64,000 nucleotides of DNA, taken from assembly GCF_009711165.2 (NCBI RefSeq), contig NZ_WMID02000003.1, forward strand, positions 62,001 to 126,000, written 5' to 3'. This document shows, piece by piece, positions 1 through 23,584 of the stretch (the stretch's first letter is position 1; each line of letters begins with the position of its first letter). The position numbers and the translations under genes are program-made. The notes under the pieces were generated by a model. The model did not search any database, was not told the DNA's origin, and worked only from the letters and a program-made list of their open reading frames with translations. The stretch comes from Flavobacterium sp. MC2016-06 (GTDB taxonomy: Bacteria; Bacteroidota; Bacteroidia; Flavobacteriales; Flavobacteriaceae).

Positions 1-13
1 GAAACACACTGTA

Positions 14-39
14 TAGAGACGCACTGCAGTGCGTCTCTA
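14..39. repeat. 26-bp perfect palindrome
   Basis: TAGAGACGCACTG is followed directly by its reverse complement CAGTGCGTCTCTA. It is intergenic and would form a strong hairpin. It resembles the short palindromic repeats scattered in flavobacterial genomes; no further copy was seen in this window. Confidence 0.7.
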
Positions 40-54
40 CGATAATTTCAGCGA

Positions 55-195
55 TTGGAATTTGGAATTTCAGCGATTGGAATTTTATTTAGAAGCACTC
101 TTCTACAATTGGAATTTGGAATTTAAAAAATTGGAATTTTATTTAGAAGTACTCTTCTACAATTGGAATTTGGAATTTAAAAGATTGGAATTTTA
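55..195. repeat. 54-bp tandem repeat, about 2.6 copies
   Basis: Copies begin at 55, 109 and 163. Each starts TTGGAATTTGGAATTT, then a 6-nt variable part, then TTGGAATTTTA; the first two continue through an AGAAGYACTCTTCTAC hairpin, and the third ends at the stop codon of the following minus-strand gene. The same TTGGAATTTGGAATTTAAAAGA block recurs as one arm of a palindrome near 48945-49010, so this is a genome-wide intergenic repeat family. The open frame across it is not a gene. Confidence 0.85.
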
Positions 196-1206
196 TACTT
201 CATATTTATCAAGTGCCTTCTGCAGTATTTTTTTCATTCGGTTTCGAAGATATTCGGGTTGAATGACTTCAATTCCATCACCAAAACCTAAGAGAATACG
301 TTCCATTTCATAATTTGGAGAAAGAAACAAATGCACAATAATACTTTTATCTTCGTTTTCCTTAATGACTCTTTGAGTGTGATGTAAAGGTTTTGTTATA
401 ACATAAGGAGCATTTACGGCATCTATCCAAAGTGCAATTTTTCTAGGCTGTAAACCCGTATTTACGGTAACGCCAATTACATTTTTATAAAATAAGTCAG
501 CATCAAAATCTTCCTCTATATAAGGTAGATTAAAATCGTAGTCTATAGCAACAATTCTGTCCAGCGCTAAATTGGTGATAGCAGCACCACTTTTTTGTTT
601 TCCGATTAAAAACCATCTGTTATTAAACTCCTTTAAAATAAAAGGATGAAAATGAAATTTAGTTTCTTCTCTAGATTTAAATGATTTGTAGGTAATAATC
701 AAAACCATTTTTTTAATAATTGCCTGATAAACTTCATCCAAATAATGTAAACCTTTCAAGCCTTCATTTTTATCCAGATAAATAACGGGTTTTGTGTTCG
801 ATTTCTCAGCGTATATTTTATCTTCCAAACGCTGTAGAATATCCGATACATCGCTGAATAAAGAGAAATCTTTAAATTGTTTCAGCATCGAAACCGTTTC
901 AGTCAAAACATTAATGTCAGTTTCTGTAAGCGGAATATCAGTTATCGAAAATTCATCATCTTCATATTTATAAAACTTCTTTTCGTAAACAACAATAGGC
1001 GCATTGTAGCCGAGTTTTTCGCTACGCATCATTTGTATATCCAGCTGAACAGTTCTTTTGCTTACTGGGTTTTCTTTTCCTTCATATTCATACAAAGCAT
1101 CCGAACACGCATTCATTAAATCCTCTAAAGTCCAAGTTCTGTAAGAATTTTGCAGACATTTGTCTATCGTTTTATATCTGATAAGGGCATTTTTATTTTG
1201 AGCCAT
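193..1206 (-). CDS. WYL-domain transcriptional regulator
   Basis: A 337-residue protein of the HTH-WYL family, usual length for the group. Residues 1-75 form a winged-helix DNA-binding region (SKRTVQLDIQMMRSEKLGY resembles the recognition helix and wing). Residues 150-330 hold the WYL ligand-binding domain, with the name-giving motif as RWFLIG, and a C-terminal WCX-like segment. WYL proteins are known to bind nucleic-acid-derived ligands and to regulate DNA-damage, phage-defence and RNA-repair loci. It lies beside the TROVE/RtcB cluster in the opposite direction, with the HD gene between. I infer, without direct proof, that it is the regulator acting on the palindrome repeated at 2109, 3728, 4543 and 22586. 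No copy of that operator is seen before its own start. Confidence 0.85.
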   Translation of the reverse strand: MAQNKNALIRYKTIDKCLQNSYRTWTLEDLMNACSDALYEYEGKENPVSKRTVQLDIQMMRSEKLGYNAPIVVYEKKFYKYEDDEFSITDIPLTETDINVLTETVSMLKQFKDFSLFSDVSDILQRLEDKIYAEKSNTKPVIYLDKNEGLKGLHYLDEVYQAIIKKMVLIITYKSFKSREETKFHFHPFILKEFNNRWFLIGKQKSGAAITNLALDRIVAIDYDFNLPYIEEDFDADLFYKNVIGVTVNTGLQPRKIALWIDAVNAPYVITKPLHHTQRVIKENEDKSIIVHLFLSPNYEMERILLGFGDGIEVIQPEYLRNRMKKILQKALDKYEV

Positions 1207-1210
1207 AATT

Positions 1211-1345
1211 TTTTGGTTTTGGCGTTAAGGCGCAGAGGTTTTTTTGTTTCACGCAGATTTTGCAGATTTTTTTCGATCCTTTTTAATCTTTTAATCTGTG
1301 GCATTAAAAAACTTTGCGACTCCGCGACTTTGCGAGATTATTTAT
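1211..1345. repeat. Flavobacterial intergenic repeat fragments
   Basis: Between the WYL gene and the structured element lie partial copies of repeats found elsewhere in the window: a TTTCACGCAGATTTTGCAGAT piece (also 10821, 41973, 57250), an AATCTGTGGC piece (also near 4515 and 46003-46210) and an AAACTTTGCGACT piece (also 6500 and 20600). No coding sequence is supported here. Confidence 0.55.
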
Positions 1346-1359
1346 GCGTTTAATTTTTT

Positions 1360-1456
1360 GGGCGTGTCCCAAGGGCCGGGCTGTACACTATATCTTTTGT
1401 GGCTCCCGATAGCTATCGGGACCGCCACAAAAGGATGCCGTTTCCATCCCTCACGC
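1360..1456. repeat. Structured GGGCGTG...CACGC repeat element
   Basis: A 97-bp GC-rich island between two minus-strand genes. The ends GCGTG and CACGC pair. A nested long hairpin has arms TTTTGTGGC and GCCACAAAA, enclosing a perfect CCCGATAG/CTATCGGG palindrome. The composition is quite unlike the AT-rich surroundings. It looks like a dispersed, structured flavobacterial repeat (element or RNA); the family name is not known to me. It also lies at the 3' end of the HD gene, so it could act in termination. Confidence 0.55.
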
Positions 1457-1458
1457 AT

Positions 1459-2073
1459 TTACGTTAATAAAGAAATCTCTTTTTTAATATTGATTCTCGC
1501 TTTTTCTTCATACAATCTTCTAAATTCCTCCGTCTGAAAAATAAATTCATTTTCCAGAAAATGTTCCAAAGCCTTTTTTCTACCGGGTTGATATAGAAAA
1601 TCAGGATAAATGCGATATTCTTTTCTAATCTGGTTAAAGTAAACTTGATAATCTTCCCATTCTTTAGAAAGGATTTTCAAATCAAAATCAATAAGCCAGT
1701 TGATATCTTCAATTTCATTCTGCTGATGAAGCTGTGTCGCGCAGATCGCATCAAAAATCAAATTCTTATTTAAAGAATCATTTTTAGATAAAACTTTCAG
1801 TGCCAATTCAGCACTTTTGAGTTCATTATCCTTTTTTGTTGCTTTATAAATATAGTCGTGATAGAAAATACTAAACAATACTTCATCAGGGTCTTTAAGG
1901 TTATTTTGATATTCATCAAATAATTCGATCATTTCTTTTAAATGATTCAAATTATGATAATGTCTTGATTTGGTAGAATATGTTTTTTCTAAATCAAGCC
2001 ATAAAAGCCTAATTTTATTAGGATCAAAGCCAATTTTGGAAAGCAGATTTGAATACTTTTCTTGTAGATTCAT
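1459..2073 (-). CDS. HD-domain metal-dependent phosphohydrolase
   Basis: A 204-residue protein of the predicted metal-dependent HD superfamily. Metal-ligand motifs are visible: RHYHNLNHL (about residues 37-45), then FYHDYIY (the HD pair, about residue 70), and further acidic residues in the helices that follow. The family resembles small cytosolic HD hydrolases of unknown substrate. Its start faces the TROVE gene across a 125-bp gap that contains the 23-bp operator palindrome, so it may be divergently co-regulated with RNA repair. Read on the minus strand, an AAATTTG box lies about 10 nt beyond the operator. HD enzymes can process nucleotides or 2',3'-cyclic phosphates; such a role here is inference from context. 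Confidence 0.75.
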   Translation of the reverse strand: MNLQEKYSNLLSKIGFDPNKIRLLWLDLEKTYSTKSRHYHNLNHLKEMIELFDEYQNNLKDPDEVLFSIFYHDYIYKATKKDNELKSAELALKVLSKNDSLNKNLIFDAICATQLHQQNEIEDINWLIDFDLKILSKEWEDYQVYFNQIRKEYRIYPDFLYQPGRKKALEHFLENEFIFQTEEFRRLYEEKARINIKKEISLLT

Positions 2074-2108
2074 AAGTAAGATTTAATCAAAAATACAAAT
2101 TTTATTTT

Positions 2109-2147
2109 ACTGCGCAGAATAATTGCGCAGTAGTTTTGAAATCTTTG
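2109..2147 (+). promoter_or_regulatory. Operator-promoter 1 (upstream of TROVE gene)
   Basis: The palindrome ACTGCGCA-GAATAAT-TGCGCAGT (2109-2131) is perfect. The -7 TTTG lies at 2144-2147, 13 nt further on. The TTG in the right arm falls about 20 nt before the -7 element, where a Bacteroidota -33 TTG belongs, so a bound regulator would overlap RNA polymerase. The symmetric site also faces the divergent HD gene. The same arrangement recurs at 3728, 4543 and 22586. Confidence 0.85.
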
Positions 2148-2198
2148 TAATGTCAAAACGAAACAACACAGATTGTTTAATTTTAAAAACCAGAAATT

Positions 2199-3716
2199 AT
2201 GAAATTCAATTTTATATCAAAAGAAAAAACTACTATAGTTAATCACGAAAATGCTATTGCTTTTCCGTTAACACCAGAATACGAATTGTATGCAGCAGTT
2301 GTAACAACAAGTTTAAATGCTTCATTTTATGAAAAAGATACAACACGTTTGGAGAGAATTCAAAACCTAATCCAAAAATGCAATCCAGTATTTGTAGCAA
2401 AGCTGGCAGTTTATGCACGTAACGAAATGCACATGCGTTCAGTACCATTAGTTTTGGTTGTAGAATTGGCAAAAATATATTCTGGTGATTCATTAATCAG
2501 TAAAACAATCACACATGTTATACAGCGTGCCGATGAGATAACAGAATTATTGGCCTATTACCAAATGGCAAATGACCGAAACGGTGTAAAAAAATTGAAT
2601 CGTTTGTCAAAACAAATCCAAAAAGGTTTGGCAGTTTCGTTCAATAAATTTGACGAGTACCAATTGGCAAAATACAACCGCGACGGTGCAGTAAAATTGA
2701 AAGATGCTTTGTTTTTGGTACATCCAAAAGCTAAAGATGAGGTGCAGCAAGAATTGTTCAATAAAATTGTAAACGATACTTTGCAAACACCTTATACTTG
2801 GGAAACAGAATTGTCGCAATTAGGTCAAGTTAAATTCTACAATGAAGAGGAAAAGCAAAAAGCATTCACTCAAAAATGGGAAGAACTGATCGAAAGCAAC
2901 AAATTGGGTTATATGGCTTTGCTTCGTAATTTGCGAAATATATTAGAAGCCAATGTTTCTGGTTCTCATATTATGAAAGTGTGTGATTTTCTTTCGAATG
3001 AAAAAGCAGTTTCGAATTCAAAACAATTGCCATTCCGATTTTTAGCAGCGTACCGAGAACTAAAATTAGTAAACTCTAAATATACTGCTTCCGTTTTAGA
3101 TGCATTAGAAAGTGCGGTAATGGTAAGTGCTCAAAACATAAAAGGTTTTGATGTAAATACTTCGGTAGTTATTGCCTGCGATGTTTCGGGTTCGATGCAA
3201 AAAGCGATTTCTCCAAAAAGTAAAGTAATGCTTTACGATATTGGTTTAATGCTGGGTATGTTAATGCAAAGCCGTTGTCAAAATGTAGTGAGCGGTATGT
3301 TTGGTGATTTTTGGAAAATAATCAATATGCCAAAACGAAGTGTATTGTCTAACGTAAACGAATACTACCGACGCGAAGGTGAAGTAGGTTACTCAACCAA
3401 CGGTTATTTGGTTTTAGAAGACTTAATAAAACGAAATGAAATTGTAGATAAAGTAATGTTGTTTACCGATGTACAAATGTGGAACAGTAATGGAACTAGC
3501 AATACTTTTAGTAATTCTTGGATGAAATACAAAAGAATAGCTCCAAATGCTAAATTGTATTTGTTTGATTTGGCAGGTTACGGTCAAGTGCCAATAAACG
3601 TTCAAAAAAATGACGTTTATTTAATCGCCGGTTGGTCAGACAAAGTGTTTGATGTATTGCATGCTTTAGAAGATAAAAGCAGTGCTTTAAATTACATCAA
3701 TCAAATAGAATTGTAA
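2199..3716 (+). CDS. rsr: TROVE (Ro60/Rsr-like) RNA-binding protein with vWA domain
   Basis: A 505-residue protein, close in length to bacterial Rsr/Ro60 proteins. Residues about 15-300 form the helical-repeat TROVE ring, which in the family binds Y RNAs and the 3' ends of misfolded RNAs. Residues about 320-500 form a von Willebrand A domain with an intact MIDAS motif DVSGSM (about residue 328) and FTDVQMW (about residue 421). Bacterial Ro works with Y RNA and PNPase in RNA decay and stress survival. Here it is followed by a structured non-coding array and then rtcB, the same order as the enterobacterial rsr-yrlBA-rtcBA locus. The start at 2199 sits about 45 nt after the expected transcription start of operator-promoter 1. 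Confidence 0.93.
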   Translation: MKFNFISKEKTTIVNHENAIAFPLTPEYELYAAVVTTSLNASFYEKDTTRLERIQNLIQKCNPVFVAKLAVYARNEMHMRSVPLVLVVELAKIYSGDSLISKTITHVIQRADEITELLAYYQMANDRNGVKKLNRLSKQIQKGLAVSFNKFDEYQLAKYNRDGAVKLKDALFLVHPKAKDEVQQELFNKIVNDTLQTPYTWETELSQLGQVKFYNEEEKQKAFTQKWEELIESNKLGYMALLRNLRNILEANVSGSHIMKVCDFLSNEKAVSNSKQLPFRFLAAYRELKLVNSKYTASVLDALESAVMVSAQNIKGFDVNTSVVIACDVSGSMQKAISPKSKVMLYDIGLMLGMLMQSRCQNVVSGMFGDFWKIINMPKRSVLSNVNEYYRREGEVGYSTNGYLVLEDLIKRNEIVDKVMLFTDVQMWNSNGTSNTFSNSWMKYKRIAPNAKLYLFDLAGYGQVPINVQKNDVYLIAGWSDKVFDVLHALEDKSSALNYINQIEL

Positions 3717-3725
3717 AACAAAAAT

Positions 3726-3766
3726 CTACTGCGTAAAATAATTGCGCAGTAGTATTTGAATCTTTG
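3726..3766 (+). promoter_or_regulatory. Operator-promoter 2 (upstream of ncRNA array)
   Basis: Core ACTGCGTA-AAATAAT-TGCGCAGT at 3728-3750, extended on both sides by CT/AG, with -7 TTTG at 3763-3766. It starts 10 nt after the TROVE stop codon, and no coding frame follows, only hairpin and tRNA-like units. The non-coding stretch therefore has its own copy of the regulon promoter. Confidence 0.85.
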
Positions 3767-3789
3767 TAATAGAAAAATAATGAAACAAG

Positions 3790-3930
3790 TGTCGTAGATA
3801 AGTGTTACTTCGATCCAAACGTCTCGGTCGGGAGTTCGAATCTCTCCATTTTTGTTAGTAATAAAAATGTAGCTCAGCGGTTAGAGTAAGATGAACAGTT
3901 ACTTATTGCCATTTACCTTGTTTTTTTTAA
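3790..3930 (+). ncRNA. Y-RNA-like unit 1 with tRNA-like arms
   Basis: Begins with the repeated hairpin motif TGTCGT...ACTTCG (3790-3812), in which AAGT pairs with ACTT. A good T-arm follows: GGGAG, loop TTCGAAT, CTCTC (3830-3846). Then comes a tRNA-like 5' half: AAATG acceptor piece, TA, a GCTC/GAGT D-arm with AGCGGTTA loop, and a GTAAG/CTTAT stem, ending near CATTT and a run of eight T (about 3921). Bacterial Y RNAs are known to combine a Ro-binding stem with a tRNA-like module, and this unit fits that plan. The exact ends are not known. Confidence 0.65.
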
Positions 3931-3939
3931 AAAAAAGAA

Positions 3940-4072
3940 TGCCGTAAGTAAGAGATACTTCGTCAATATTTAGGGGAGGAATAGCGAAGTTGTAAAAACA
4001 GCAAGGTTATCCAGTTCGACTCTGGCACACGCACGCCCCGTTTCTCTTATTGCTTTTGCTTCTTTTTAAAAA
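3940..4072 (+). ncRNA. Y-RNA-like unit 2 with tRNA-like T-arm
   Basis: Motif TGCCGT...TACTTCG at 3940-3962 with AAGTA pairing to TACTT. Downstream is a T-arm CCAG, loop TTCGACT, CTGG (about 4011-4026) and a T-rich tail at about 4063-4072. The layout is the same as unit 1. Confidence 0.6.
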
Positions 4073-4080
4073 CTGAAAAA

Positions 4081-4137
4081 TGTCGTGTGTTAGCGCTACT
4101 TCGTTCCAAAAAATAACGCTGATCAATTATTACTTTT
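4081..4137 (+). ncRNA. Y-RNA-like unit 3 (short)
   Basis: Motif TGTCGT...CTACTTCG at 4081-4103, directly followed by TTCCA as in unit 1 (ATCCA). The unit is short, ends in a T-run, and has no clear T-arm. It may be a decayed copy or a hairpin-only module. Confidence 0.5.
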
Positions 4138-4151
4138 TCAAATTTATAAGA

Positions 4152-4236
4152 TGCCGTTTATAAGTGCTACTTCGCGGCATGATAATATTAGGTTCGAATC
4201 CTTAAAGTCACTTGTAAAATTATTGCTCTTAAAAAA
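4152..4236 (+). ncRNA. Y-RNA-like unit 4 with closing stem and T-arm
   Basis: Motif TGCCGT...CTACTTCG at 4152-4174. This copy shows an outer stem: TGCCG (4152-4156) pairs with CGGCA (4175-4179), inside which AAGT pairs with ACTT. A T-arm-like TTAGG, loop TTCGAAT, CCTTAA follows. It is the clearest copy for the structure of the repeated module. Confidence 0.6.
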
Positions 4237-4245
4237 ACAAAAGAG

Positions 4246-4320
4246 TGTCGTCAGGAAATGGTTACTTCGCCTTACATGAAAAAACAAACCATTCCTAAAC
4301 ATTACCTCTTTTATAATTAT
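4246..4320 (+). ncRNA. Y-RNA-like unit 5
   Basis: Motif TGTCGT...GTTACTTCG at 4246-4269, one base longer in the spacer than the other four copies. No T-arm is visible after it; a T-rich stretch lies near 4310. The array seems to end here, before the palindromic repeat at 4384. Confidence 0.5.
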
Positions 4321-4383
4321 AAATTAAAAAATGAATGTAGTAAAAAGACACCATGTAAATAAGATTAAAACGAATTGATTGTT

Positions 4384-4482
4384 CATTTCGACGGAGGAGA
4401 AATCGCACTAGAAGATCGACAATCAAGATCGCCAAATCTTTGAGGAAATACTAGTGCGATTTCTCCTCCGTCGAAATGACAT
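4384..4482. repeat. REP-type palindrome, copy 1
   Basis: The arms TCATTTCGACGGAGGAGAAA and its complement TTTCTCCTCCGTCGAAATGA enclose about 55 nt with further pairing (ATCGCACTAG/CTAGTGCGAT). Related copies lie at 6321-6421 and 44253-44352. This one separates the ncRNA array from the rtcB promoter. Confidence 0.85.
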
Positions 4483-4542
4483 AAAATGAGGAAAAAATCA
4501 TTTTAATTCTTTAAATCTGTGGCAAAAAACAAATTAAAGTTA

Positions 4543-4580
4543 TCTACGCAAAATAATTACGCAGTACGAAACAACCTTTG
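4543..4580 (+). promoter_or_regulatory. Operator-promoter 3 (upstream of rtcB)
   Basis: Core TCTACGCA-AAATAAT-TACGCAGT at 4543-4565, the most diverged copy, with the AAATAAT spacer conserved. The -7 TTTG is at 4577-4580, 12 nt after the core. Because this promoter lies inside the upstream in-frame extension of rtcB, it argues for the rtcB start at 4603. Confidence 0.8.
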
Positions 4581-4602
4581 TACTATCAAAAAAATAGAAA
4601 AC

Positions 4603-6024
4603 ATGAATACACAAATCAACGGATTTGAATTAATAGCATTAGGATTCCCACAAGGCCAAGCAATTGGCGTTGCCTTAAAAATAAACAGCAAAAGACATGG
4701 ACTTAAACGTGAAGAAATGATGACTAATTTCAAGAACGTTTTAGAAAATCCAGAACACTATATAGACGATGCTATTTTTAGCAAACTGGCAGTTGTTTTA
4801 ATCGAAAAAGCAAATGAAAAGCCAGAAGATTTTATTGCCTTAAATCCAACCCCAAATGCTTATTCGGCTTACGGATTAGAGCATATCGAAGACGGCGCCA
4901 GAAAACAAATGGAAGTTGCAATGCAATTGCCTGTTACCGTTGCCGGCGCTTTAATGCCAGATGCTCATCAAGGTTACGGATTACCAATTGGAGGTGTTTT
5001 GGCAACCAAAAATGCTGTTATTCCGTATGGCGTTGGAGTTGATATTGGCTGTAGAATGGCTTTGTCGGTTTACGATATTCCAGAAGGTTTTTATTTTGAG
5101 AACGAAGCTAAATTTAAAAGAGAATTAATTGCACATTCTAAGTTTGGAGCTGGACACGGTTTTCAAGGACAGTACAAAGCAGATCACGCCGTTTTGAGCG
5201 ATGAAGCTTTTAATATGAATCCGTTTGTGAAGAACTTAAAAGATAAAGCTTGGTCACAATTGGGGTCTTCTGGAGGAGGAAATCATTTTGTTGAATTCGG
5301 AATTATGGAGTTTGCCCAAGACGATACGATTTTGAATATTCCGAAAGGGAAATATGTGGCTTTGTTAACGCATTCTGGTTCTAGAGGAATGGGTGCAACT
5401 CTTGCGGGACATTATACCAAAATTGCGAAAGATGTTTGTAAATTGCCAGAAGTGGCAAGAAACTTAGCCTACTTAGATATGAATTCGCAATTAGGTCAGG
5501 AATATTGGCTGGCGATGAATCTTGCAGGAGATTACGCTTCGGCTTGTCATGAAGTTATTCATACCAAAATGGAAAAAGCTTTAGGCGCCGTAGTTTTGGC
5601 AAAAGTCGAAAATCACCACAACTTTGCTTGGAAAGAAATCTGGAATGGCGAAGAAGTAATCGTGCATAGAAAAGGCGCAACTCCAGCAGGAAAAGGCGTT
5701 ATGGGAATCATTCCCGGAAGTATGACCGCGCCTGGGTTTTTGGTAAGAGGAAAAGGCCAGGAGAACGCCATCAATTCGGCTTCGCACGGAGCAGGAAGAC
5801 AAATGAGCCGAACACAAGCCATAAAAAACATCACTAAAAGTGAAATGCAGTCGATCTTAAAAGATCACGGCGTAACGCTTATTGGTGCAGGTTTAGACGA
5901 AGCGCCAATGGCCTACAAAGATATTAACCAAGTTATGGCATCACAACAAGAATTAGTTGATGTTGTAGCAAAATTTACTCCAAAAATGGTCAGAATGGCC
6001 GATGACGGAAGTAGAGAAGATTAA
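4603..6024 (+). CDS. rtcB: RNA-splicing/repair ligase RtcB
   Basis: A 473-residue GTP- and Mn2+-dependent RNA ligase. RtcB joins 2',3'-cyclic phosphate (or 3'-phosphate) ends to 5'-OH ends, as made by anticodon nucleases. All family motifs are present: DIGCRM (about residue 147), HSGSRGMG (about 258), ENHHNFAW (about 338), HRKGATPAG, IPGSMTAPGF (about 371) and SHGAGRQMSR (about 394), which holds the histidine that becomes guanylylated. I chose the ATG at 4603 because the in-frame extension upstream contains the promoter. It is the last gene before a strong terminator. No rtcA (cyclase) or archease gene is seen in the window. Confidence 0.96.
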   Translation: MNTQINGFELIALGFPQGQAIGVALKINSKRHGLKREEMMTNFKNVLENPEHYIDDAIFSKLAVVLIEKANEKPEDFIALNPTPNAYSAYGLEHIEDGARKQMEVAMQLPVTVAGALMPDAHQGYGLPIGGVLATKNAVIPYGVGVDIGCRMALSVYDIPEGFYFENEAKFKRELIAHSKFGAGHGFQGQYKADHAVLSDEAFNMNPFVKNLKDKAWSQLGSSGGGNHFVEFGIMEFAQDDTILNIPKGKYVALLTHSGSRGMGATLAGHYTKIAKDVCKLPEVARNLAYLDMNSQLGQEYWLAMNLAGDYASACHEVIHTKMEKALGAVVLAKVENHHNFAWKEIWNGEEVIVHRKGATPAGKGVMGIIPGSMTAPGFLVRGKGQENAINSASHGAGRQMSRTQAIKNITKSEMQSILKDHGVTLIGAGLDEAPMAYKDINQVMASQQELVDVVAKFTPKMVRMADDGSRED

Positions 6025-6027
6025 GCA

Positions 6028-6063
6028 AACCTAACAGGTTTTTAAAGCCTGTTAGGTTTTTTT
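6028..6063 (+). terminator. Rho-independent terminator of rtcB
   Basis: CCTAACAGG and CCTGTTAGG form a 9-bp stem around a short A/T loop, followed by a T-run, directly after the rtcB stop codon. The CCTAACAGGTTT sequence recurs near 12187. Confidence 0.85.
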
Positions 6064-6079
6064 AGGTTCAAAAGATTCA

Positions 6080-6223
6080 ATCATTAAAACAGAAATCTAC
6101 AATGAGTTTATTAAAGAGAACTACTTTGTAGAGTTTGTTTTGGACGATAGAAACCAAGTGGTTGATACCTGGAGAAATGACTTAAGACTGCCTTGTTTCC
6201 AGGTTTATTATGGAGATTTTTAG
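6080..6223 (+). pseudogene. Possible 3' remnant of a lost gene
   Basis: An open stretch of 47 codons without a start reads as a protein-like C-terminus, with segments such as KENYFVEFVLDDRNQVVD and RLPCFQVYYGDF before a stop. It lies just after the rtcB terminator. The composition is more protein-like than the flanking repeats. I do not recognise the family, and it may be chance. Confidence 0.3.
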
Positions 6224-6320
6224 GCGTAGATTTAACCGTAAAGTTCGTAATCCCGATAACTATTGGGATACGCAAAGGTTCGCAAAGGTTTGTTTCACGC
6301 AAAGATTTATCCTCATTTTT

Positions 6321-6421
6321 ATGTCATTTCGAGGGACGAGAAATCGCACGCGGAACTCCATAACGACAAGCTTCAATCTTTGTAGACAATCTAATGTGAT
6401 TTCTCGTTCCTCGAAATGACA
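6321..6421. repeat. REP-type palindrome, copy 2
   Basis: The arms GTCATTTCGAGGGACGAGAA and TTCTCGTTCCTCGAAATGAC, with ATCGCAC and the related AATGTGAT inside, are the same family as 4384-4482 and 44253-44352, with compensating changes in the two arms (GGGACGAG versus CTCGTTCC). Confidence 0.85.
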
Positions 6422-6427
6422 AATATT

Positions 6428-6536
6428 ACGCTTAAAAAACTTTGAGAATTAGCGCTTTAGCGGCAAAAACAAAAAAACAAAGCAAAGAATAAAAAAAAAC
6501 TTTGCGACTTAGTGCCTTAGCGGCAAAAATAAAAAA
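6428..6536. repeat. AAACTTTG...CGGCAAAAA tandem fragments
   Basis: Two consecutive degenerate copies of an AAACTTTGnGAnTTAGnGCnTTAGCGGCAAAAA unit precede tatD. Related copies occur near 1310, 20600-20720 and 44440. They are typical intergenic repeats. No promoter could be singled out for tatD inside them. Confidence 0.5.
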
Positions 6537-6538
6537 AT

Positions 6539-7339
6539 ATGAAAACATACATAGACATAGGTATTAACCTAACCAATAAACAATTCCAAAACGATACAGA
6601 CGATATCGTACAAGACGCACAAGATGCCGACGTTACAAAAATGATCCTTACAGGTACAAGCGTACGAAATAGCGAAGAATCAGCTAGAATAGCCAAACAA
6701 TATCCGGGCGTTTTATATGCCACAGCAGGAATTCATCCGCATGATGCGAAGAGTTTTGACAATCAGAGTATTTCAAAACTAAAGAATTTATTGCTGCAGC
6801 AACATGTCGTTTCGGTAGGCGAGTGCGGACTCGATTTTGATCGTGATTTTTCGCCTAGAAACGTACAAGAATCGTGTTACAAAGCACATTTAGAATTAGC
6901 GATCGAAATTCAGAAACCTTTGTTTTTGCACGAAAGAGCTGCTTTTACTCGGTTTATCAGTATTACGAGCGAATATCTGCCGAAACTGCCAAAAGCCGTT
7001 GTACATTGTTTTACAGGAACTTTGCAAGAAGCTAAAACGTATCTCGATAACGGATTTTATCTGGGGTTTACAGGAGCAATTTCAGACAGTAAACGTTTTG
7101 AACATTTAAAAGAAGTCATTCAATATGTTCCGCTGGACAAAATGATGATCGAAACCGATGCGCCGTTTATGCTTCCAAAAAATGTTCCGAATAGTCTTTT
7201 AAAAAAATACCACGATCGTAGATGCGAACCTGCGTTTCTGCCTTATGTTGCGGGAACAATTGCGCAGTTTAAAGGAGTATCTTTGGATAGAGTGGCGGAA
7301 CAGACAACATTAAATTCTAAAGTTTTTTTTGGGATTTAG
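6539..7339 (+). CDS. tatD: TatD-type metal-dependent nuclease
   Basis: A 266-residue TIM-barrel hydrolase that matches E. coli TatD closely in motif order: DIGINLTNKQF at the start, then TAGIHPHDAK, VSVGECGLDFDRDFS (metal-binding Glu), HERAAFTRF, VVHCFTGT, and MIETDAPFMLP with the final Asp. TatD is known as a 3'-5' exonuclease on DNA and RNA. The usual flavobacterial housekeeping relative is of the YcfH type, so an E. coli TatD-like enzyme beside rtcB suggests trimming of damaged RNA ends in the same island. That link is inference from position only. Confidence 0.9.
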   Translation: MKTYIDIGINLTNKQFQNDTDDIVQDAQDADVTKMILTGTSVRNSEESARIAKQYPGVLYATAGIHPHDAKSFDNQSISKLKNLLLQQHVVSVGECGLDFDRDFSPRNVQESCYKAHLELAIEIQKPLFLHERAAFTRFISITSEYLPKLPKAVVHCFTGTLQEAKTYLDNGFYLGFTGAISDSKRFEHLKEVIQYVPLDKMMIETDAPFMLPKNVPNSLLKKYHDRRCEPAFLPYVAGTIAQFKGVSLDRVAEQTTLNSKVFFGI

Positions 7340-7392
7340 AAAAAGAACATAATTGTTTATTTGGTTAATCTGAAAATTTAAAAATATCAAAC

Positions 7393-8409
7393 ATGGATGA
7401 GATAATAATAGTTGAGAATGGAAAAAATATCATTGATGTCGTTTGGGATGGTTTCATTACCTGTCTTAAAATTAAGAAACCTGTAGCTTTTGATAAACAT
7501 GAATACTGTACAGAACAAGATTCTTCTAAACAATTTTGGTTAAATGGAGATCATGAAAAAATTGACGATATATATAATTTCGATGAAATCTTAATCTATG
7601 GAAATGAAGAAGAAATCAAAAAAGAAGTTTATTCTTTTCTAAATATTTTTTTGTCTGGTCGATATATAGTAAAGTTGGAAAGCTGGGTTTTGTCAAAATT
7701 TGAGTTACATAGATATTATGATAAAATTCAAAATTCAAATAATTTTTCTTATCCATATGAAAGTAGAATGAAAATAGAAGACCCTTATAATGTAATGTTT
7801 ACAATACCTTTTTATGATATATCACATGAAAGAGTTAAGTTCTATAAAGAATTAATTGAAAAAGGGATTAGACCAAAAATTATAACGACAGGATGTTTAG
7901 ATGTAGTTTTTATTTTAGATGGACATCATAAATATTTGGCTTATATGGCAGCGCAGGTTCCTGCAGAGATTATTTCAATTAAAAAAAATGAAGATGATAG
8001 TGATGAGGCAATGTTAGATTTATATTTAGATGCTCAATTTATGATGTCTGAAGATGAAAAACAATATTTTATTTCAGAACAACCTCTTTTATTTACAGAC
8101 ACAAGTGACAAAGCATTAAGGTATAATACAGAATTGGATAAATATTTACTCAAATTTGAAAGGCATATTTCTTATATGGTTTTTAGATTAATACTTAAAA
8201 GTATTATTTCAGATAAAGAAGAAGAGAAAAATTGGGGATTAGAAAAATTAGCTATTATTAGAAATAAAGATTTTGAGAATAGACCAATATTTTTGAATAA
8301 AATTCTTTCAGATGGATCGATATCATCTGGAATAATAAATTCTAAAGAGGAATTCGATACTCGTATCGATGAGTTTTTAAACAATAAAACACATTTTTTT
8401 TTTAATTAG
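7393..8409 (+). CDS. Unknown protein with ParB-like DGHHK motif
   Basis: A 338-residue protein, AT-rich compared with its neighbours. The middle part (about residues 150-205) contains PKIITTGCLDVVFILDGHHKYLAYMAAQ, which resembles the ligand loop of the ParB/sulfiredoxin fold (DGHHR type); the rest is not recognised. The C-terminal half is charged and probably helical. There is no signal peptide or membrane segment. It lies between tatD and a close pair of genes leading to the tRNA-like array. Its function is unknown; the base composition suggests acquisition separate from rtcB. Confidence 0.7.
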   Translation: MDEIIIVENGKNIIDVVWDGFITCLKIKKPVAFDKHEYCTEQDSSKQFWLNGDHEKIDDIYNFDEILIYGNEEEIKKEVYSFLNIFLSGRYIVKLESWVLSKFELHRYYDKIQNSNNFSYPYESRMKIEDPYNVMFTIPFYDISHERVKFYKELIEKGIRPKIITTGCLDVVFILDGHHKYLAYMAAQVPAEIISIKKNEDDSDEAMLDLYLDAQFMMSEDEKQYFISEQPLLFTDTSDKALRYNTELDKYLLKFERHISYMVFRLILKSIISDKEEEKNWGLEKLAIIRNKDFENRPIFLNKILSDGSISSGIINSKEEFDTRIDEFLNNKTHFFFN

Positions 8410-8433
8410 TAATATTATCAACAGCGAATAAAA

Positions 8434-9126
8434 ATGCACCCAATTCAGCTTCAAAATGCTATAAAAGCCGTAATTCCCAACTTGAATAAAGAATGGAAAG
8501 AAAAATATGCTTTGTTTTTAACAGACGAAAATCTGTATCTTTTCGCAGCCAATTTCATTGCCTTTTACAGTCAAAATACAGAAATAGTTAGAAAGCCTTA
8601 TTTCAAAGACGAAATTATAATTTCGATACAAGAAAACAGGATTTATTTCGAAGCGGTTTTCGAAGCTTTTAAAAACAATTTAGACCAATTAGAATTTCAA
8701 ATTATAAAAATGTTTGAAGAAACGCCTTTTGACGTTATTTTACTTATTTTAGGACAGCGTTTAACTTCGGCCAGCAGACGAGACGAAACGGGAATTCCGC
8801 CTTCAAAAAGTACTCTTTTTGAAAGTTGTTTCGAACCTTATAACAGTGAAATATCTATTGTAGAAAGAGCTTGGGAAAAACACGTTGGCAGAACAAAAGA
8901 CAGTAATAGTGTTTTGGGAGAGATAAAAGGAAACCGAAGCGAAAAACGGTTAAAAGTAGAAAGACTAGTTTATCACATCATAGGTTATAAAACCTGGTGG
9001 AATACATTTTACCATTATAAACACGGTTTGGTTTACGAAGTAAGAGTAGAAAACGGACAAGGATTACGATGGTCGGCTGATGGAAAACAATTTATCGGGT
9101 TTTTAGAACATTTTTTAGAAGAATAA
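8434..9126 (+). CDS. Unknown cytosolic protein upstream of SDR gene
   Basis: A 230-residue protein without recognised domain, signal peptide or membrane segment. The N-terminal 100 residues look helical. The C-terminal part is rich in W, Y, K and R (GYKTWWNTFYHYKHG), which would suit nucleic-acid contact but proves nothing. Its stop codon is only 2 nt before the SDR start, so the two are almost certainly co-translated, and the SDR gene in turn leads straight into the tRNA-like array. Confidence 0.75.
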   Translation: MHPIQLQNAIKAVIPNLNKEWKEKYALFLTDENLYLFAANFIAFYSQNTEIVRKPYFKDEIIISIQENRIYFEAVFEAFKNNLDQLEFQIIKMFEETPFDVILLILGQRLTSASRRDETGIPPSKSTLFESCFEPYNSEISIVERAWEKHVGRTKDSNSVLGEIKGNRSEKRLKVERLVYHIIGYKTWWNTFYHYKHGLVYEVRVENGQGLRWSADGKQFIGFLEHFLEE

Positions 9127-9128
9127 TA

Positions 9129-10499
9129 ATGAAAGAAAATACAAAGTATACTTTTAGTGCCGAAGAATGGGAAAACTGCATCAAGGTTTTAAAAGCTTTA
9201 AAAGACACTCCGTTTGAAAATCCAGACAATAATTTGTTTGCCGGATTGATTACCAAAATCCATAAAAATGCAAAAAAGAACCTTCGCAGCACAAGTTATA
9301 GTTCTAAAAGGAAAGAAGATCTGCAAACAAGTCTAAATGCAACATTGGTAAGCAAAGCCCTAGAAGGTGAAACAATGTATGCCGAAAAAGAAAATCCAGA
9401 TGAGCAGCAGTTTACAGCATTAAATATTCCTAAAAATTGTTATTCCTGCGGACAGTCGTACAAATTGGCACATAGTTTTTATACACGCCTTTGCCCAGAT
9501 TGTGCTGCAGAAAATTACGAAAAACGTTTTCAGAATATCGATCTAAGAGGCAGAAATGCAATCGTAACCGGCGGCCGCGTAAAAGTAGGATTTGCAACGG
9601 TGCTGAGGTTATTACGAAACAATGCCAATGTAGTTTTAACAACACGTTTTCCGGCTTTGGCTTTAGAACAGTTAATGCAGGAAAATGATTTTGAGCAATG
9701 GAAAGAAAACCTGATTGTTTATGGTTTAGATTTAAGAAACCTAAATGCCATCAACGATTTTATTGCTTTCTATAAGTCAAAATTTGACAGCTTAGATATT
9801 TTAATAAATAACGCGGCTCAAACCATAAAATATACAGACGAACATTATGTGCCTTTAATGAAAATTGAAGAAAAATTATTAGATAAATTTAAAGCTAATG
9901 TAAATTTAATTGGCAATAAAACACCCGTAACAAAAGAAGTAAAAGCCTTAGAATACAGCGCTGGAGAAGAAACCGAAGTACAGCTTACTCGTTTTGGACA
10001 ACCTGTAGACAATAGAGAAAAAACAAGCTGGAATTCGACTCTAGAAGAAATAAGCATGTACGAGTTGGTTGAGGTAAATTTAATCAATCAAATTGCGCCT
10101 TATTTTTTAATAAAAGAACTGAAACCGTTTTTTTTAAACTCAGCATTTAAAGAGCGTTTTATCATCAACGTAACATCGTCTGAAGGGATTTTCAGTTATA
10201 CCAACAAAACCATATTTCATCCGCATACCAATATGACAAAAGCGGCGCTGAATATGATGACGCTTACTTCTGCCAAAGAATTTGCGGTTGATAATGTTTT
10301 TATGACCAGTGTAGATGTCGGCTGGATTTCGACAGGAGCAAAAGAAAGTCTGCGTAAAAAACAATTTGAAGAAGGCTATATTCCGCCATTAGATTCTGTA
10401 GACGGAGCCAGCAGAATTTTTGATCCAATATTTCAGGGAATCAACGGAAAAACTATATTTGGAGTATTATTAAAAAACTACAAAGTTTCTGCTTGGTAA
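9129..10499 (+). CDS. SDR-family protein with zinc knuckle and altered active site
   Basis: A 456-residue protein. Residues 1-100 are a helical extension. Residues 104-125 hold a CxxC...CxxC knuckle (CYSCG, then CPDC), probably zinc-binding. From residue 140 a Rossmann-fold short-chain dehydrogenase domain follows: VTGGRVKVG replaces TGxxxGxG, and NNAAQT replaces NNAG. The usual YxxxK reads TNMTK, so the catalytic tyrosine is Thr while the Lys stays. About 70 residues (about 235-310) are inserted in the fold. Dehydrogenase activity is therefore doubtful; it may bind a nucleotide or RNA instead. It stops 5 nt before the first tRNA-like gene, which suggests a joint transcript with the array. 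Confidence 0.85.
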   Translation: MKENTKYTFSAEEWENCIKVLKALKDTPFENPDNNLFAGLITKIHKNAKKNLRSTSYSSKRKEDLQTSLNATLVSKALEGETMYAEKENPDEQQFTALNIPKNCYSCGQSYKLAHSFYTRLCPDCAAENYEKRFQNIDLRGRNAIVTGGRVKVGFATVLRLLRNNANVVLTTRFPALALEQLMQENDFEQWKENLIVYGLDLRNLNAINDFIAFYKSKFDSLDILINNAAQTIKYTDEHYVPLMKIEEKLLDKFKANVNLIGNKTPVTKEVKALEYSAGEETEVQLTRFGQPVDNREKTSWNSTLEEISMYELVEVNLINQIAPYFLIKELKPFFLNSAFKERFIINVTSSEGIFSYTNKTIFHPHTNMTKAALNMMTLTSAKEFAVDNVFMTSVDVGWISTGAKESLRKKQFEEGYIPPLDSVDGASRIFDPIFQGINGKTIFGVLLKNYKVSAW

Positions 10500-10504
10500 A
10501 ATTT

Positions 10505-10576
10505 AGGATGGTAGTTTAATTGGAAAAACCGCTCCCACCACGGGGAATGTTTTGGGTTCGAGTCCCAACTGTCCTA
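10505..10576 (+). ncRNA. tRNA-like gene A (Gly/Glu-like, degenerate)
   Basis: The acceptor AGGATGG pairs with CTGTCCT (two wobbles), the D-arm GTTT/AAAC is intact, and the T-arm TTGGG-TTCGAGT-CCCAA is perfect. The anticodon arm is damaged: GCTCC faces GGGGA around a 6-nt loop. Gene B at 10673 is a diverged tandem copy whose stems differ by compensating changes, so the fold appears to be kept. Confidence 0.65.
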
Positions 10577-10578
10577 CT

Positions 10579-10651
10579 AAGGTGTTAGCTCAATTGGAAG
10601 AGCGTCTGTCGGCACAACAGAAGGTGCGGGTTCGAGTCCTTGCACACCTTT
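10579..10651 (+). tRNA. tRNA-like gene C (GCA loop, no U33)
   Basis: Acceptor AAGGTGT/ACACCTT, D-stem GCTC/GAGC and anticodon stem TCTGT/ACAGA are all fully paired. The loop CGGCACA has G where U33 is invariant in working tRNAs; the anticodon position would read GCA (Cys). The T-stem contains a 1-nt bulge. It lies 2 nt after gene A. I take it as a tRNA-like RNA that is unlikely to serve in translation, although a scanner may call it a tRNA. Confidence 0.65.
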
Positions 10652-10672
10652 TTATAAGAAAAATACAAATAT

Positions 10673-10744
10673 GGGATAATAGTTTAATTGGAAAAATTAC
10701 TCCCATTCACGGAGTGGTTTTGGGTTCGAGTCCCAATTATCCTG
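10673..10744 (+). tRNA. tRNA-like gene B (Glu-like, no U33)
   Basis: A complete cloverleaf: acceptor GGGATAA/TTATCCT, D-arm GTTT/AAAT, anticodon stem ACTCC/GGAGT, T-arm TTGGG-TTCGAGT-CCCAA. The anticodon loop CATTCAC carries TTC (Glu) but A in place of U33. It is the second copy of the A-C tandem unit. Confidence 0.7.
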
Positions 10745-10746
10745 CA

Positions 10747-10951
10747 AAGGTGTTAGCTCAATTAGAAGAGCACTTGCCTGTTGAGCAATGTCATTAAGTT
10801 AAGAAATAAATAAAAAAGTTTCACGCAGATTTAGCAGATTTTAGCAGATTTTTTATTCCTATTCTGCTAAAATCTGCTAAATCTGCGTGAAAAAACAGCT
10901 TAACTTAATGACATTGCGCGAGCGGTTGCGGGTTAGAATCCTGCACATCTT
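10747..10951 (+). ncRNA. tRNA-like gene D (Asn-like), interrupted in the anticodon arm
   Basis: Acceptor AAGGTGT/ACATCTT, D-stem GCTC/GAGC, and T-arm GCGGG-TTAGAAT-CCTGC. The anticodon arm reads CTTGC-CTGTTGA, then a 133-bp palindrome (10785-10917), then GCGAG. Removing the palindrome exactly restores a 5-bp stem with a 7-nt loop carrying GTT (Asn) and a cloverleaf in which every arm has standard length. The D-loop has lost one of the two conserved G and the T-loop has A for C56. Confidence 0.7.
10785..10917. mobile_element. 133-bp palindromic element inserted in tRNA-like gene D
   Basis: Terminal arms of 19 bp (GCAATGTCATTAAGTTAAG and its exact complement) and inner arms of 29 bp (beginning TTTCACGCAGATTTAGC) with a 14-nt A/T-rich centre. 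No coding capacity and no obvious target duplication. A partial relative with the same inner CACGCAGAT repeat and a CTTAACTTAATAACATTG end lies at 57249-57347. It behaves like a non-autonomous MITE/REP-type element. Confidence 0.75.
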
Positions 10952-11009
10952 TATTTTACAGTATTTCAATTTTCAGATTTCGATTTTAATTTTAATAAAA
11001 CAATAAAAA

Positions 11010-12155
11010 ATGTATTGTCAAAAGAGTAAAATAATGTTGCTTTTAGTAGTATCTGTATTGATGTTTTCATGTCAAAAGGAGGTAAAAACAGAGAAGAAAA
11101 AAATTAAAAAAGATACCGTTACAGCTGTTGAGCCCGAAGAAGAAAAAATAATTTTACCCGAAGAAGAAAGTAATTTTTTAAAGAGACTTATAAAAGAAGA
11201 AATCGGAAAACAAAAGTACGATGATTTACAAACCAAATATTCACCTTATTCAGTACATTTTGCCAACGACGGCGATCCGTATTCGGTTTCGTATTCAATT
11301 GTAAAGAAAAGTGATTTTAATAATGATGGCGTTATAGATTATGTAGTTGATATTTCATCTGAAGGAATGTTGGGAGGCAATGCAAATACGAATCAAAGAT
11401 TTGTTTATTACATTATGATAAATGAAATTACGCCAAGAGAGGAACATTCTATTTTAGGTTACGCGCCTTTTTCTTATAATATAATTGATAAAGCAAATTT
11501 TGTAGGAGATAAATTTAAAGTAGATGTTACACAAAATTTTAGAACTTATAGCTCTAATGTAGAAGATTTAAAATCGACATCGCTTTCCTTTGTATACAAG
11601 AATGATAATTTATATGAAGAATCGTATTTGTCTGATTGTAAATTGGCAAAATTAAAGTCGAAAATTATTTTTAAATATATCCCTGACGTATCAATGCGTA
11701 AGCGAAGTATAGATATGCACAATTATACCGAAACTATTGACGAGAGTTATAGTAACAATGACACCTTAATTTCAGCAAGTTTAACGGGCTGCGATAATTT
11801 GTCTTTAAGTTTTGATACGACTTACAAAGTTGACAGCAGTGACATGGATGATGCCGATTTTAGAAAAAATACGTCCTTACAGTTTTTAAGTTTTTTATCG
11901 AAAAATACACTGTTTTCTAAAGAAATTGATATCGTAGCAAATTATTTCAGCGAAAACCCTATTACAGATGAATATATCAAGAAAGTAAAAGGGTATGAGT
12001 TTAGAATTTTAATTCAAAAAGATAGAGAAAACAAAAACGATTTAAGGTTTTTAATTAACATTGATAAAATTGATAATCCTTATCAAAAAGAAAATTGGGA
12101 AATTGCTACACGCCAAAAAACAGCACCAAAAGAAGACGAAGAATATGACGACTAG
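11010..12155 (+). CDS. Predicted lipoprotein of unknown function
   Basis: A 381-residue exported protein. The N-terminus has a hydrophobic stretch ending in the lipobox LMFSC (Cys about residue 21), so it should be lipid-anchored. A Lys/Glu-rich linker follows (residues 22-60). The segment SDFNNDGVIDYVVDIS (about residues 104-119) looks like an EF-hand-like/VCBS calcium loop. The rest is not recognised. An alternative start at 11034 would give a shorter signal peptide. There is no visible link to the RNA island on either side. Confidence 0.75.
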   Translation: MYCQKSKIMLLLVVSVLMFSCQKEVKTEKKKIKKDTVTAVEPEEEKIILPEEESNFLKRLIKEEIGKQKYDDLQTKYSPYSVHFANDGDPYSVSYSIVKKSDFNNDGVIDYVVDISSEGMLGGNANTNQRFVYYIMINEITPREEHSILGYAPFSYNIIDKANFVGDKFKVDVTQNFRTYSSNVEDLKSTSLSFVYKNDNLYEESYLSDCKLAKLKSKIIFKYIPDVSMRKRSIDMHNYTETIDESYSNNDTLISASLTGCDNLSLSFDTTYKVDSSDMDDADFRKNTSLQFLSFLSKNTLFSKEIDIVANYFSENPITDEYIKKVKGYEFRILIQKDRENKNDLRFLINIDKIDNPYQKENWEIATRQKTAPKEDEEYDD

Positions 12156-20400: not shown

Positions 20401-20471
20401 GATTTTGTAGTGAAACTGGTATAATGCAGGTTTTTTAACTAGTGATGAAGGTTCGAGTCCTTCCAAAATCA
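20401..20471 (+). ncRNA. tRNA-like gene E (degenerate centre)
   Basis: Acceptor GATTTTG/CAAAATC and T-arm GAAGG-TTCGAGT-CCTTC are perfect, but the D-arm is weak and no normal anticodon stem forms around the T-rich TTTTTTAA loop. It resembles a tRNA reduced to its acceptor/T-arm half. It starts the second tRNA-like array, which ends 29 nt before the RNA ligase gene. Confidence 0.65.
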
Positions 20472-20492
20472 CACTGTTCTCTAGAAAGAACT

Positions 20493-20565
20493 GGCTCATT
20501 GGGGTTACTGGCTAACCTTCCCGACTGTCTCTCGGGAGAAACGGGTTCGACTCCCGTATGAGCCG
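20493..20565 (+). tRNA. tRNA-like gene F (Asp-type, GTC)
   Basis: Acceptor GGCTCAT/ATGAGCC, D-arm GGTT/AACC with one extra base before it, anticodon stem CCCGA/TCGGG with loop CTGTCTC (GTC, Asp), and T-arm ACGGG-TTCGACT-CCCGT, all fully paired. Position 37 is U instead of the usual purine. It is a near-normal cloverleaf that could be read as a true tRNA-Asp, but the odd D region and its place in an array of aberrant tRNAs suggest a mimic. Confidence 0.7.
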
Positions 20566-20727
20566 CAAGTGAAATTAAAAATTAAAAATTAAAAGTTGAA
20601 AATTAAAACTTAGCGACTCTGCGACTTTGCGAGAAAAAGAAGCTGGATTGTTAAAAAAAAGAATCTCGCAAAGTCGCAAAGACGCAGAGAAAATTAAACT
20701 TAGTGTCTTTGTGGCAAAAAATAAAAT

Positions 20728-20800
20728 GGTGTTTTTAGTTTATTTGGTAAAACGGCGGTTTGTGGATCCGCAGAACAGGGTTCGATTCCCGAAGACACCC
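20728..20800 (+). tRNA. tRNA-like gene G (His-type, GTG)
   Basis: Acceptor GGTGTTT/AGACACC, D-arm GTTT/AAAC, anticodon stem GCGG/CCGC with a T-T mismatch closing the loop TTGTGGA (GTG, His), and a weakened T-arm where only three pairs remain. It lacks the clear G-1:C73 arrangement of the normal tRNA-His at 48800. Probably a mimic or decayed copy. About 160 nt of AAACTTAGnGACT-type repeats separate it from gene F. Confidence 0.6.
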
Positions 20801-20805
20801 CAAAT

Positions 20806-20881: not shown

Positions 20882-20884
20882 AAT

Positions 20885-23534: not shown

Positions 23535-23584
23535 AGCGGCAGAAACTTCATGGGACAAATGAAAGAGATTTTTGCAAAATAAAA

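Follow-up and report, generated by a model that had tools for sequence, protein, structure and literature searches.

What is encoded between the TROVE (Ro60/Rsr-like) gene (2199..3716, plus strand) and the rtcB RNA ligase gene (4603..6024, plus strand) in this 64,000-nucleotide (nt) stretch of the Flavobacterium sp. MC2016-06 genome, hereafter the window? From 3717 to 4600 there is no open frame longer than 61 codons, counted stop to stop, and five Y-type RNA units, as delimited by a covariance model called R1, tile 3781-4314 on the plus strand. It is likely, judging from sequence comparison, that the region is a five-member array of bacterial Y RNAs, with a common stem that would sit on the TROVE ring and heads that would recruit tRNA-recognising enzymes. 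A sequence-only reading of the window had proposed a Y-RNA-like array beside TROVE, based on five copies of a motif at 3790, 3940, 4081, 4152 and 4246. All five copies were found there, and the proposal is supported by covariation, by R1 matches in the genome that are confined to the five units and by co-occurrence with TROVE. The 505-amino-acid product of the TROVE gene matches Pfam TROVE with 101.7 bits and the PDB entries 9l5y, 9kop, 1yvp and 9nen, and its DVSGS at residues 328-332 is unchanged in all seven sequences of alignment A1 (window included). The rtcB product matches Pfam RtcB with 271.7 bits.

Sequence comparison indicates that each unit can form one common stem of two helices, in which a conserved internal U-G-Y-C-G faces U-U-R-C and UACUUCG stands at the head side. 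Unit 1 (type 1, 3784..3922) consists of the outer stem AACAAG/CTTGTT, UGUCG..UUAC, the inner stem, UACUUCG and a permuted tRNA-like head. Unit 2 (class 2, 3934..4065) has a head made of GGGGAGGAAUAGC..GUUAUCC, a T-arm and CCCC. Unit 3 (4075..4139) is a minimal unit of stem and short loop, unit 4 (4146..4232) has a T-arm as its whole head and unit 5 (4240..4311) is again minimal; all five lie on the plus strand. For the string TACTTCG, 4.75 occurrences would be expected in the window; there are 15, and five of them are within the array. When 91 units were set side by side (window included), the stretch 5' of TGYCG paired with the stretch 3' of UURC, and the variable middle with the segment just 5' of UURC. 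A closing stem of the 5' and 3' ends that is kept across relatives, and a location near a Ro60/Rsr (TROVE) gene, are both characteristic of bacterial Y RNAs and both are found here.

The Y-R pair is U-A in 43 of the 91 units, C-G in 40, U-G in eight and C-A in none, and it played no part in placing the 3' strand. The outer stem was used for that placement, so its figure is biased toward structure (at least five of six pairs in 88/91 units versus 81/320 swapped within a locus). The inner stem reaches at least six contiguous base pairs in 80/91 units versus 149/320 swapped and 684/1820 shuffled. The alignments were assembled from units picked by motif, and conserved letters are therefore uninformative in them and changes on both sides of a pair informative. 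In A3 (class 2, 23 rows) 95.6% of the cells are paired and covariation is 0.460, versus 0.214 when shuffled and at most 0.138 when slid; the figures for A4 (type 1, 26 rows) are 95.5%, 0.489, 0.201 and at most 0.152. A5 (mixed, 32 rows) has 90.4% of cells paired versus 62.5% shuffled, a score of 0.808 versus 0.255 (slid, at most 0.194) and 168 doubly changed cells versus 53.6, with the outer helix paired at 99.6% and the inner at 82.3%. All such percentages are biased toward structures drawn from the same units: that of A5 was drawn by hand, that of A3 is RNAalifold's own and that of A4 is RNAalifold's minus a local helix, the A4 count leaving out both this helix and the inner stem. The inner long-range stem has both-sided changes at 9/9 pairs in A3 and in A5. 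From the alignments alone, RNAalifold predicted the outer stem with the Y-R pair in A2, A3, A4 and A6, the inner stem in A2, A3 and A6, and a T-arm, a capped acceptor and a D-arm in A4.

Does this stem belong with TROVE? R1 was built from A5, with units 3-5 in its training set and units 1 and 2 outside it. It matches unit 1 at 3781-3925 (54.8 bits, E 7.6e-12), unit 2 at 3931-4068 (54.6 bits, E 8.7e-12), unit 3 at 4072-4142 (68.7 bits, E 1.4e-15), unit 4 at 4143-4235 (45.4 bits, E 2.5e-9) and unit 5 at 4237-4314 (68.5 bits, E 1.6e-15). These are its only units in the window, where the next best match has E 0.19, and in the whole genome nothing beyond them was found at E <= 1 (150 of 1656 first-look candidates scored). 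TROVE is present in 21/249 Flavobacterium genomes, this one included. Covariance modelling across Flavobacterium, a check that the sequence-only reading had proposed, gave matches at E <= 0.001 with stricter filters in 9/121 genomes, which are the nine TROVE carriers, and none in the other 112 (the 121-genome draw was read as G000-G120, and carriers were matched by genome handle up to G120). The hairpin motif, on whose conservation in homologous loci that reading had staked its case, is present in 2-6 regular-expression copies downstream of TROVE in 20/20 relatives' loci (the TROVE carriers other than this genome), which hold 99 R1 matches at E <= 0.05.

In a set of 80 loci, the best 80 of 287 relatives and all labelled as Bacteroidota except one metagenome-assembled genome labelled Limnohabitans (L085), R1 gave 496 (208 + 288) matches at E <= 0.05, which include 29 of the 32 units used for training. 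They lie in 79/80 loci, all on the TROVE strand; the sole locus without a match, L120, is on a contig that stops about 200 nt after TROVE, and the largest array has 12 units (L125). The IMG/VR TROVE loci, 74 with a few near-duplicates, gave 87 matches at E <= 0.1 in 54, again all on the TROVE strand. As far as these sequence matches tell, the Y stem accompanies TROVE across a wide range. The regular expression undercounts, with 323 units kept versus 496 by R1 in the 80-locus set; over the 20 relatives and the 80-locus set together it gives 414, with duplicates, and the 323 are the cleaner set. For L054, one motif match inside rtcB was left out, and a later expression failed to pick up two copies whose middle is longer. 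A strict DNA motif pattern matched 77 of 299 family genomes, scattered and about as frequently as a reversed control, and was replaced by R1. In L058 two pairs of Y units (4989-5283 and 5945-6239) stand 956 nt apart with a similar open reading frame (ORF) before each (4354-4974, 5339-5932), a tandem duplication of a gene with its Y units.

It is plausible that the conserved element is the TROVE-binding site, because all heads share it and within the genus it was found only in TROVE carriers. The Ro60 site of vertebrate Y RNAs has the sequence GUCCGA/UUGAC, which GYCG/UURC of the array resembles by eye, without shown sequence homology. Judged by eye, both seem to have a helix, an unpaired C and an asymmetric loop on the opposite strand. 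In A3-A5 these are an outer helix of 6 or 7 base pairs with the G-C and Y-R pairs, the unpaired C and the loop; compared by eye, the sizes differ from those of the vertebrate site, which is described as a seven-base-pair helix with a single bulged C and a three-nt bulge opposite (PMC4726728).

Several results weigh against the Y RNA array. The contrast for the inner stem is weaker than for the outer, as the share of swapped pairs that also reach six base pairs indicates. A5 likewise has the weaker pairing in its inner stem, with 2/9 pairs broken in about half of the rows, and the number of pairs changed on both sides is 16 versus 13.8 shuffled, a value that 16/500 shuffles reach; the remaining A5 measures were reached by 0 or 1 of 500. 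RNAalifold predicted no inner stem in A4 (type 1), preferring a nearly invariant local helix, and when folded as single sequences, units 1-4 do not outdo their shuffled versions (z-scores of units 1-5: 0.43, -0.31, 0.14, -0.09 and -2.11), the structure being visible by comparison only. No scanned unit reaches the gathering score of 69 of the YrlA family (Rfam RF02553) in the window at 1-12000, the 20 relatives' genomes, 10/74 viral loci and parts of L058, L123 and L125. In the array of the window YrlA matches the head of unit 1 only (24.3 bits), and 0/20 relatives' genomes exceed the cut-off, the best match within an array having 43.8 bits and the best anywhere 50.2, the latter on a different contig from TROVE. 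The YrlA model responds to tandem tRNA genes as well (at 10713-10774 of the window) and weakly matches 13 and 10 of 14 control genomes in two scans, so sub-threshold YrlA scores are weak evidence. A downstream rtcB, looked for within the stretches compared, was found in 15/21 Flavobacterium loci (one partial match) and in just 26/80 of the larger set, which makes the link to rtcB mainly a Flavobacterium feature. Finally, the function suggested for the heads is carried over by analogy from other bacteria.

The local helix preferred in A4 bears on the proposal of the sequence-only reading that a local AAGNGNTACTT hairpin, five times repeated, is the TROVE site. AAGT/ACTT pairing is possible in some copies, and in the type-1 class RNAalifold takes GUAG/UUAC, there without the inner long-range stem. 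This helix, however, is nearly unchanged at 3/4 pairs and has no both-sided change, whereas the long-range partner has such changes at 9/9 inner pairs in two other alignments. The motif is instead the 5' strand of a long-range covarying stem, and a repeated local hairpin as the binding site is very improbable in our view. An outer TGCCG/CGGCA stem had also been suggested for copy 4. Its CGGCA half is kept in L044, L048 and L057, and the suggestion fails in L041, L046, L050 and L052, which have TTGGTTGAT there.

If the stem is shared, the heads are what sets the five RNAs apart: a permuted tRNA in unit 1, a second T-arm fold in unit 2 (order GGGG..T-arm..CCCC), a T-arm only in unit 4 and none in units 3 and 5. 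With a T-arm defined by a TTCRANB loop and at least four of five base pairs, T-arms are present in unit 1 (GGGAG-TTCGAAT-CTCTC, 3830..3846, plus strand, 5/5 pairs), unit 2 (CCAG-TTCGACT-CTGG) and unit 4 (TTAGG-TTCGAAT-CCTTAA, 4/5 pairs) and absent from units 3 and 5, in agreement with the three T-arm-like structures noted earlier. Unit 1 continues on the plus strand with an acceptor-like stem (CATTTTT / AAAAATG, 3847..3869), capped by a loop in place of free ends, and a D-arm (3872..3887). A tRNA-like 5' half had been ascribed to one unit; in unit 1 the order of the tRNA parts is permuted, the D-arm standing 3' of the T-arm. In the permuted tRNA the closing (Ro) stem occupies the place of the anticodon arm. 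The A4 alignment has the T-arm (helix 2) paired in 97.7% of cells and the capped acceptor (helix 3) in 93.1%, with both-sided changes at 7/7 pairs; the D-arm (helix 4) is 96.2% paired and almost invariant, hence without covariation support. Among the 323 regular-expression units, 228 have a T-arm versus 3.5 in shuffled heads. The T-arm precedes a D-like string in 126 and follows it in one, and about 19 of the 228 T-arm units would show a later D-like string by chance. A 2014 survey by Chen reportedly lists more than 250 species with Y RNAs close to Ro60 and a tRNA-like form among those of every species, which implies several per species; here unit 1 has such a tRNA-like domain.

The same heads could be taken for remnants, the T-arms and D-arm being what is left of a decaying or diversified array of tRNA genes, and genuine tRNA genes do stand inside some arrays (L144, L134, L098, L093, L145). 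Against this, ARAGORN finds no tRNA in 3781-4314, the T/D order is permuted 126 to 1, the acceptor stems are capped and covarying, and the flanking stem is 90% paired and in the genus only found in TROVE carriers. The Rfam tRNA model gives 17.4 bits in the array against a cut-off of 29, so the heads are not canonical linear cloverleaves. A tRNA gene array is already largely refuted and we give it hardly any credence. The tRNA genes between Y units are tRNA-Lys(UUU) in L144 (7321-7394), L134 (9157-9390), L098 (6191-6264) and L093 (9475-9548), and a tRNA-Met gene lies inside the Y array of viral L145 (6624-6698); most other loci scanned have none within the array. In viral L180 (357-499) and L188 (6829-6966) a Y unit overlaps a linear tRNA model match (55.4 and 32.7 bits), and some heads may there be unpermuted tRNAs. 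Elsewhere in the window, a tRNA cluster at 20401-20961 (one unassigned, Asp, His, Ile(TAT) and Leu(TAG)) stands directly before an RLIG1-like RNA ligase gene (20990-21559), and dense tRNA clusters are also present in the TROVE stretches L093, L098, L099, L104, L107, L109, L123, L138 and L144.

How do these RNAs relate to the known bacterial Y RNAs? Like those of the YrlA type (Salmonella YrlA/YrlB and the Deinococcus Y RNA), they have a 5'/3' closing stem, lie beside rsr/TROVE and include a head that is tRNA-like in having a T-arm, a capped acceptor and a D-arm. The array differs in its stem consensus (UGYCG..UACUUCG), in falling under the Rfam cut-off in every stretch scanned and in having 5 units (12 in L125) with several head types in one array. 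Full-length sub-threshold YrlA matches to relatives' units were found at 10055-10183 of L125 (42.2 bits) and 8929-9062 of L123 (43 bits), and the class 2 unit in L123 has no known Rfam family beyond weak sub-threshold matches. Weak YrlA matches outside the array (e.g. 30.8 bits elsewhere in this genome) were considered as Y RNAs and dropped, as control genomes match too. Five genomes (G191, G201, G120, G169 and G079) have YrlA matches of 35-49 bits about 18-19 kilobases downstream of TROVE, the position of the tRNA cluster in the window, and these are possibly tandem tRNA junctions. The tRNA-like domain of YrlA is similar to the D, T and acceptor arms (PMC8394870). DusA and TruB act on YrlA heads, and in Deinococcus Rsr is tethered to PNPase by a Y RNA (PMC8394870, PMC4726728).

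Heads of another kind are found among the relatives. In 14 loci the head of one Y unit begins with the H69-H70 segment of 23S rRNA, a segment that may be targeted by modification enzymes or toxins. These are L058 and L060 among the 20 relatives and 12/80 of the larger set (L085, L099, L102, L103, L106, L110, L125, L126, L132, L133, L135 and L140), the latter recognised by pattern and alignment only. The units are 224-232 nt long and 14/14 align end to end with the common Y stem. The L058 head is identical to its own 23S gene at 30/31 positions (score 57, where 200 base shuffles reach at most 31), and that of L060 scores 38 versus 31. The similarity is limited to the first ~31 nt of the head, since the rest scores 22 versus 30 in L058 and has no significant match in L060; presumed H71 is reduced to a short tetraloop hairpin, and Rfam gives no rRNA family for the L058 unit. 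The array in the window has no 23S-like unit.

Heads that copy tRNA arms without an anticodon arm, or open with a piece of 23S rRNA as in those 14 relatives' loci, raise the possibility that the RNAs are decoys that soak up ribotoxins or tRNA-binding factors. Such a decoy could bind an anticodon nuclease and stay uncut, because the Ro stem replaces the anticodon arm. Repair genes and real tRNA genes occur in such loci, and competitive inhibition has been suggested for YrlA by Hughes et al. (PMC7790460). However, decoys would require a high copy number, units 3 and 5, being minimal, lack anything that could mimic a target, and a decoy role alone does not explain a conserved stem that is tied to TROVE. 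Decoy function is the main rival to loading on TROVE and recruitment of enzymes; we consider it possible, though clearly the less probable of the two, and it may coexist with the favoured mechanism.

The array seems to have its own promoter (3729..3768, plus strand), in which the palindrome CTGCGTA-N7-TGCGCAG (3729-3749) is followed by TTTGTA (3763-3768), presumably a Bacteroidota -7-like promoter element. The palindrome also stands before TROVE (2110..2130, plus strand), before rtcB (4544..4564, plus strand) and, as a fourth site, at 22587-22607 before a MoxR/bpX gene cluster (22690-29478). The whole genome has four sites of the 21-nt palindrome at <=2 mismatches and the reversed control none, and TTTGTA begins 34, 34, 33 and 34 nt past the palindrome start at the four sites. 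The palindrome thus lies over the -33 region, which suggests a role in repression. Among 21 Flavobacterium loci it was found in 20 at <=4 mismatches (a scan without shuffled control) and in 18 at <=2; the pattern was drawn from the sites of this genome and fits Chryseobacterium and others poorly.

From its position between TROVE and rtcB, the array could instead be a cis leader that regulates rtcB by attenuation or structure switching. Yet a separate palindrome with a promoter-like TTTGTA precedes rtcB at 4544-4582, and no downstream rtcB was found in 6/21 Flavobacterium and 54/80 loci, within stretches that include some short contigs. A cis leader is very improbable on these grounds.

The neighbourhood of the Y RNA array was also compared. 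A WYL/WCX regulator gene (193..1206, minus strand; Pfam WYL and WCX) stands divergent upstream in 18/21 Flavobacterium loci (window included) and 37/80 loci, and by its position the WYL protein is a candidate reader of the palindrome. The genes behind the 22587 site (a small ORF, an unknown ORF, an RNase_T-type exonuclease, bpX4, bpMoxR, bpX2 and bpX0/bpX1) would form one operon. In relatives, similar palindromes precede genes identified by Pfam: in L068 (3 mismatches) those for a T4 Rnl1-like ligase and for Pnkp, in L074 (2 mismatches) those for Hen1 and for a Pnkp-type ligase, and in L086 (2 mismatches) that for Hen1, and a gene resembling the bpX4 of the window lies behind a 4-mismatch site in L060 (by likeness, without Pfam scan). 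TROVE, the Y RNAs and RtcB, together with Pnkp/Rnl/Hen1 and MoxR/bpX genes in this or related genomes, are a candidate regulon. Three further elements were noted. A 40-nt inverted repeat, 88% complementary and looking like a dispersed element of repetitive extragenic palindrome or miniature inverted-repeat transposable element type, lies between array and rtcB (4383-4479), with a similar element by eye at about 6320-6420. After rtcB, ~6070-6224 holds a short remnant like the C-terminal end of the L068 polynucleotide kinase-phosphatase (Pnkp). A Flavo-1 RNA (Rfam RF01705) is found at 1370-1469 on the minus strand (48.8 bits against a cut-off of 42).

Parts of this arrangement have precedents. 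In Salmonella two Y RNAs stand beside rsr and rtcBA in the operon rsr-yrlBA-rtcBA (PMC7790460), and the window shares this grouping of rsr, Y RNA and rtcB genes. It differs from that operon in its WYL gene and palindromic promoters, in a promoter-like element for each part and in the larger array; a search confined to the eight proteins scanned between 193 and 10499 gave no Pfam match for rtcA or for RtcR, a sigma54 activator. The Pnkp1-Rnl-Hen1 RNA repair system is known as well (PMC4411300). It recalls the Hen1-N and Pnkp-type ligase genes behind a similar palindrome in relatives, in contrast to the window, in which none was seen save the short pnkp remnant. The statement of the sequence-only reading that such an array is not described was therefore too strong, as several Y RNAs by rsr and rtcB are known (PMC7790460). 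The open-licence literature, as far as it was available, gave no account of multi-unit Y arrays in Bacteroidota or of an rRNA-like Y head, which is weak evidence of absence, and the text of PMC7159879 has no RtcB or Y RNA and 'trove' only in a reference title. Several Y RNAs beside rsr/rtcB are known; new are the five units, the mixed heads, a stem class outside the YrlA cut-off and the palindromic promoters.

We infer the following mechanism. The array would be transcribed as one precursor from a single promoter of the same design as the TROVE and rtcB promoters, and after any processing the individual RNAs would be loaded on the TROVE (Rsr) ring by way of their common stem. Enzymes that recognise tRNA (PNPase, or enzymes of modification or repair) would then be recruited by the tRNA-like heads, and the minimal units 3 and 5 would probably be plain gates on the ring. 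Rsr could thereby handle several kinds of damaged RNA, with RtcB and related enzymes sealing the breaks.

The array offers a natural comparative set, with one stem and one predicted promoter, for matching each head with the enzyme that it may bring to Rsr. In the relatives, the 23S-like head gives a testable link to the role of Rsr in rRNA maturation and decay reported in Deinococcus (PMC4726728). As a tentative idea, which we hold with less than even confidence, the Y arrays of Bacteroidota could be expandable sets of RNA-target mimics on one Rsr handle, co-expressed with RNA ligases and replacement tRNAs upon RNA damage. The units would then display copies of different RNAs: several tRNA bodies, the H69-H70 segment in the 14 loci that have it, and the T-arm fold. 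In case this holds, Y RNAs would not be tRNA mimics per se, and would serve as adaptors or decoys for whichever RNA is attacked.

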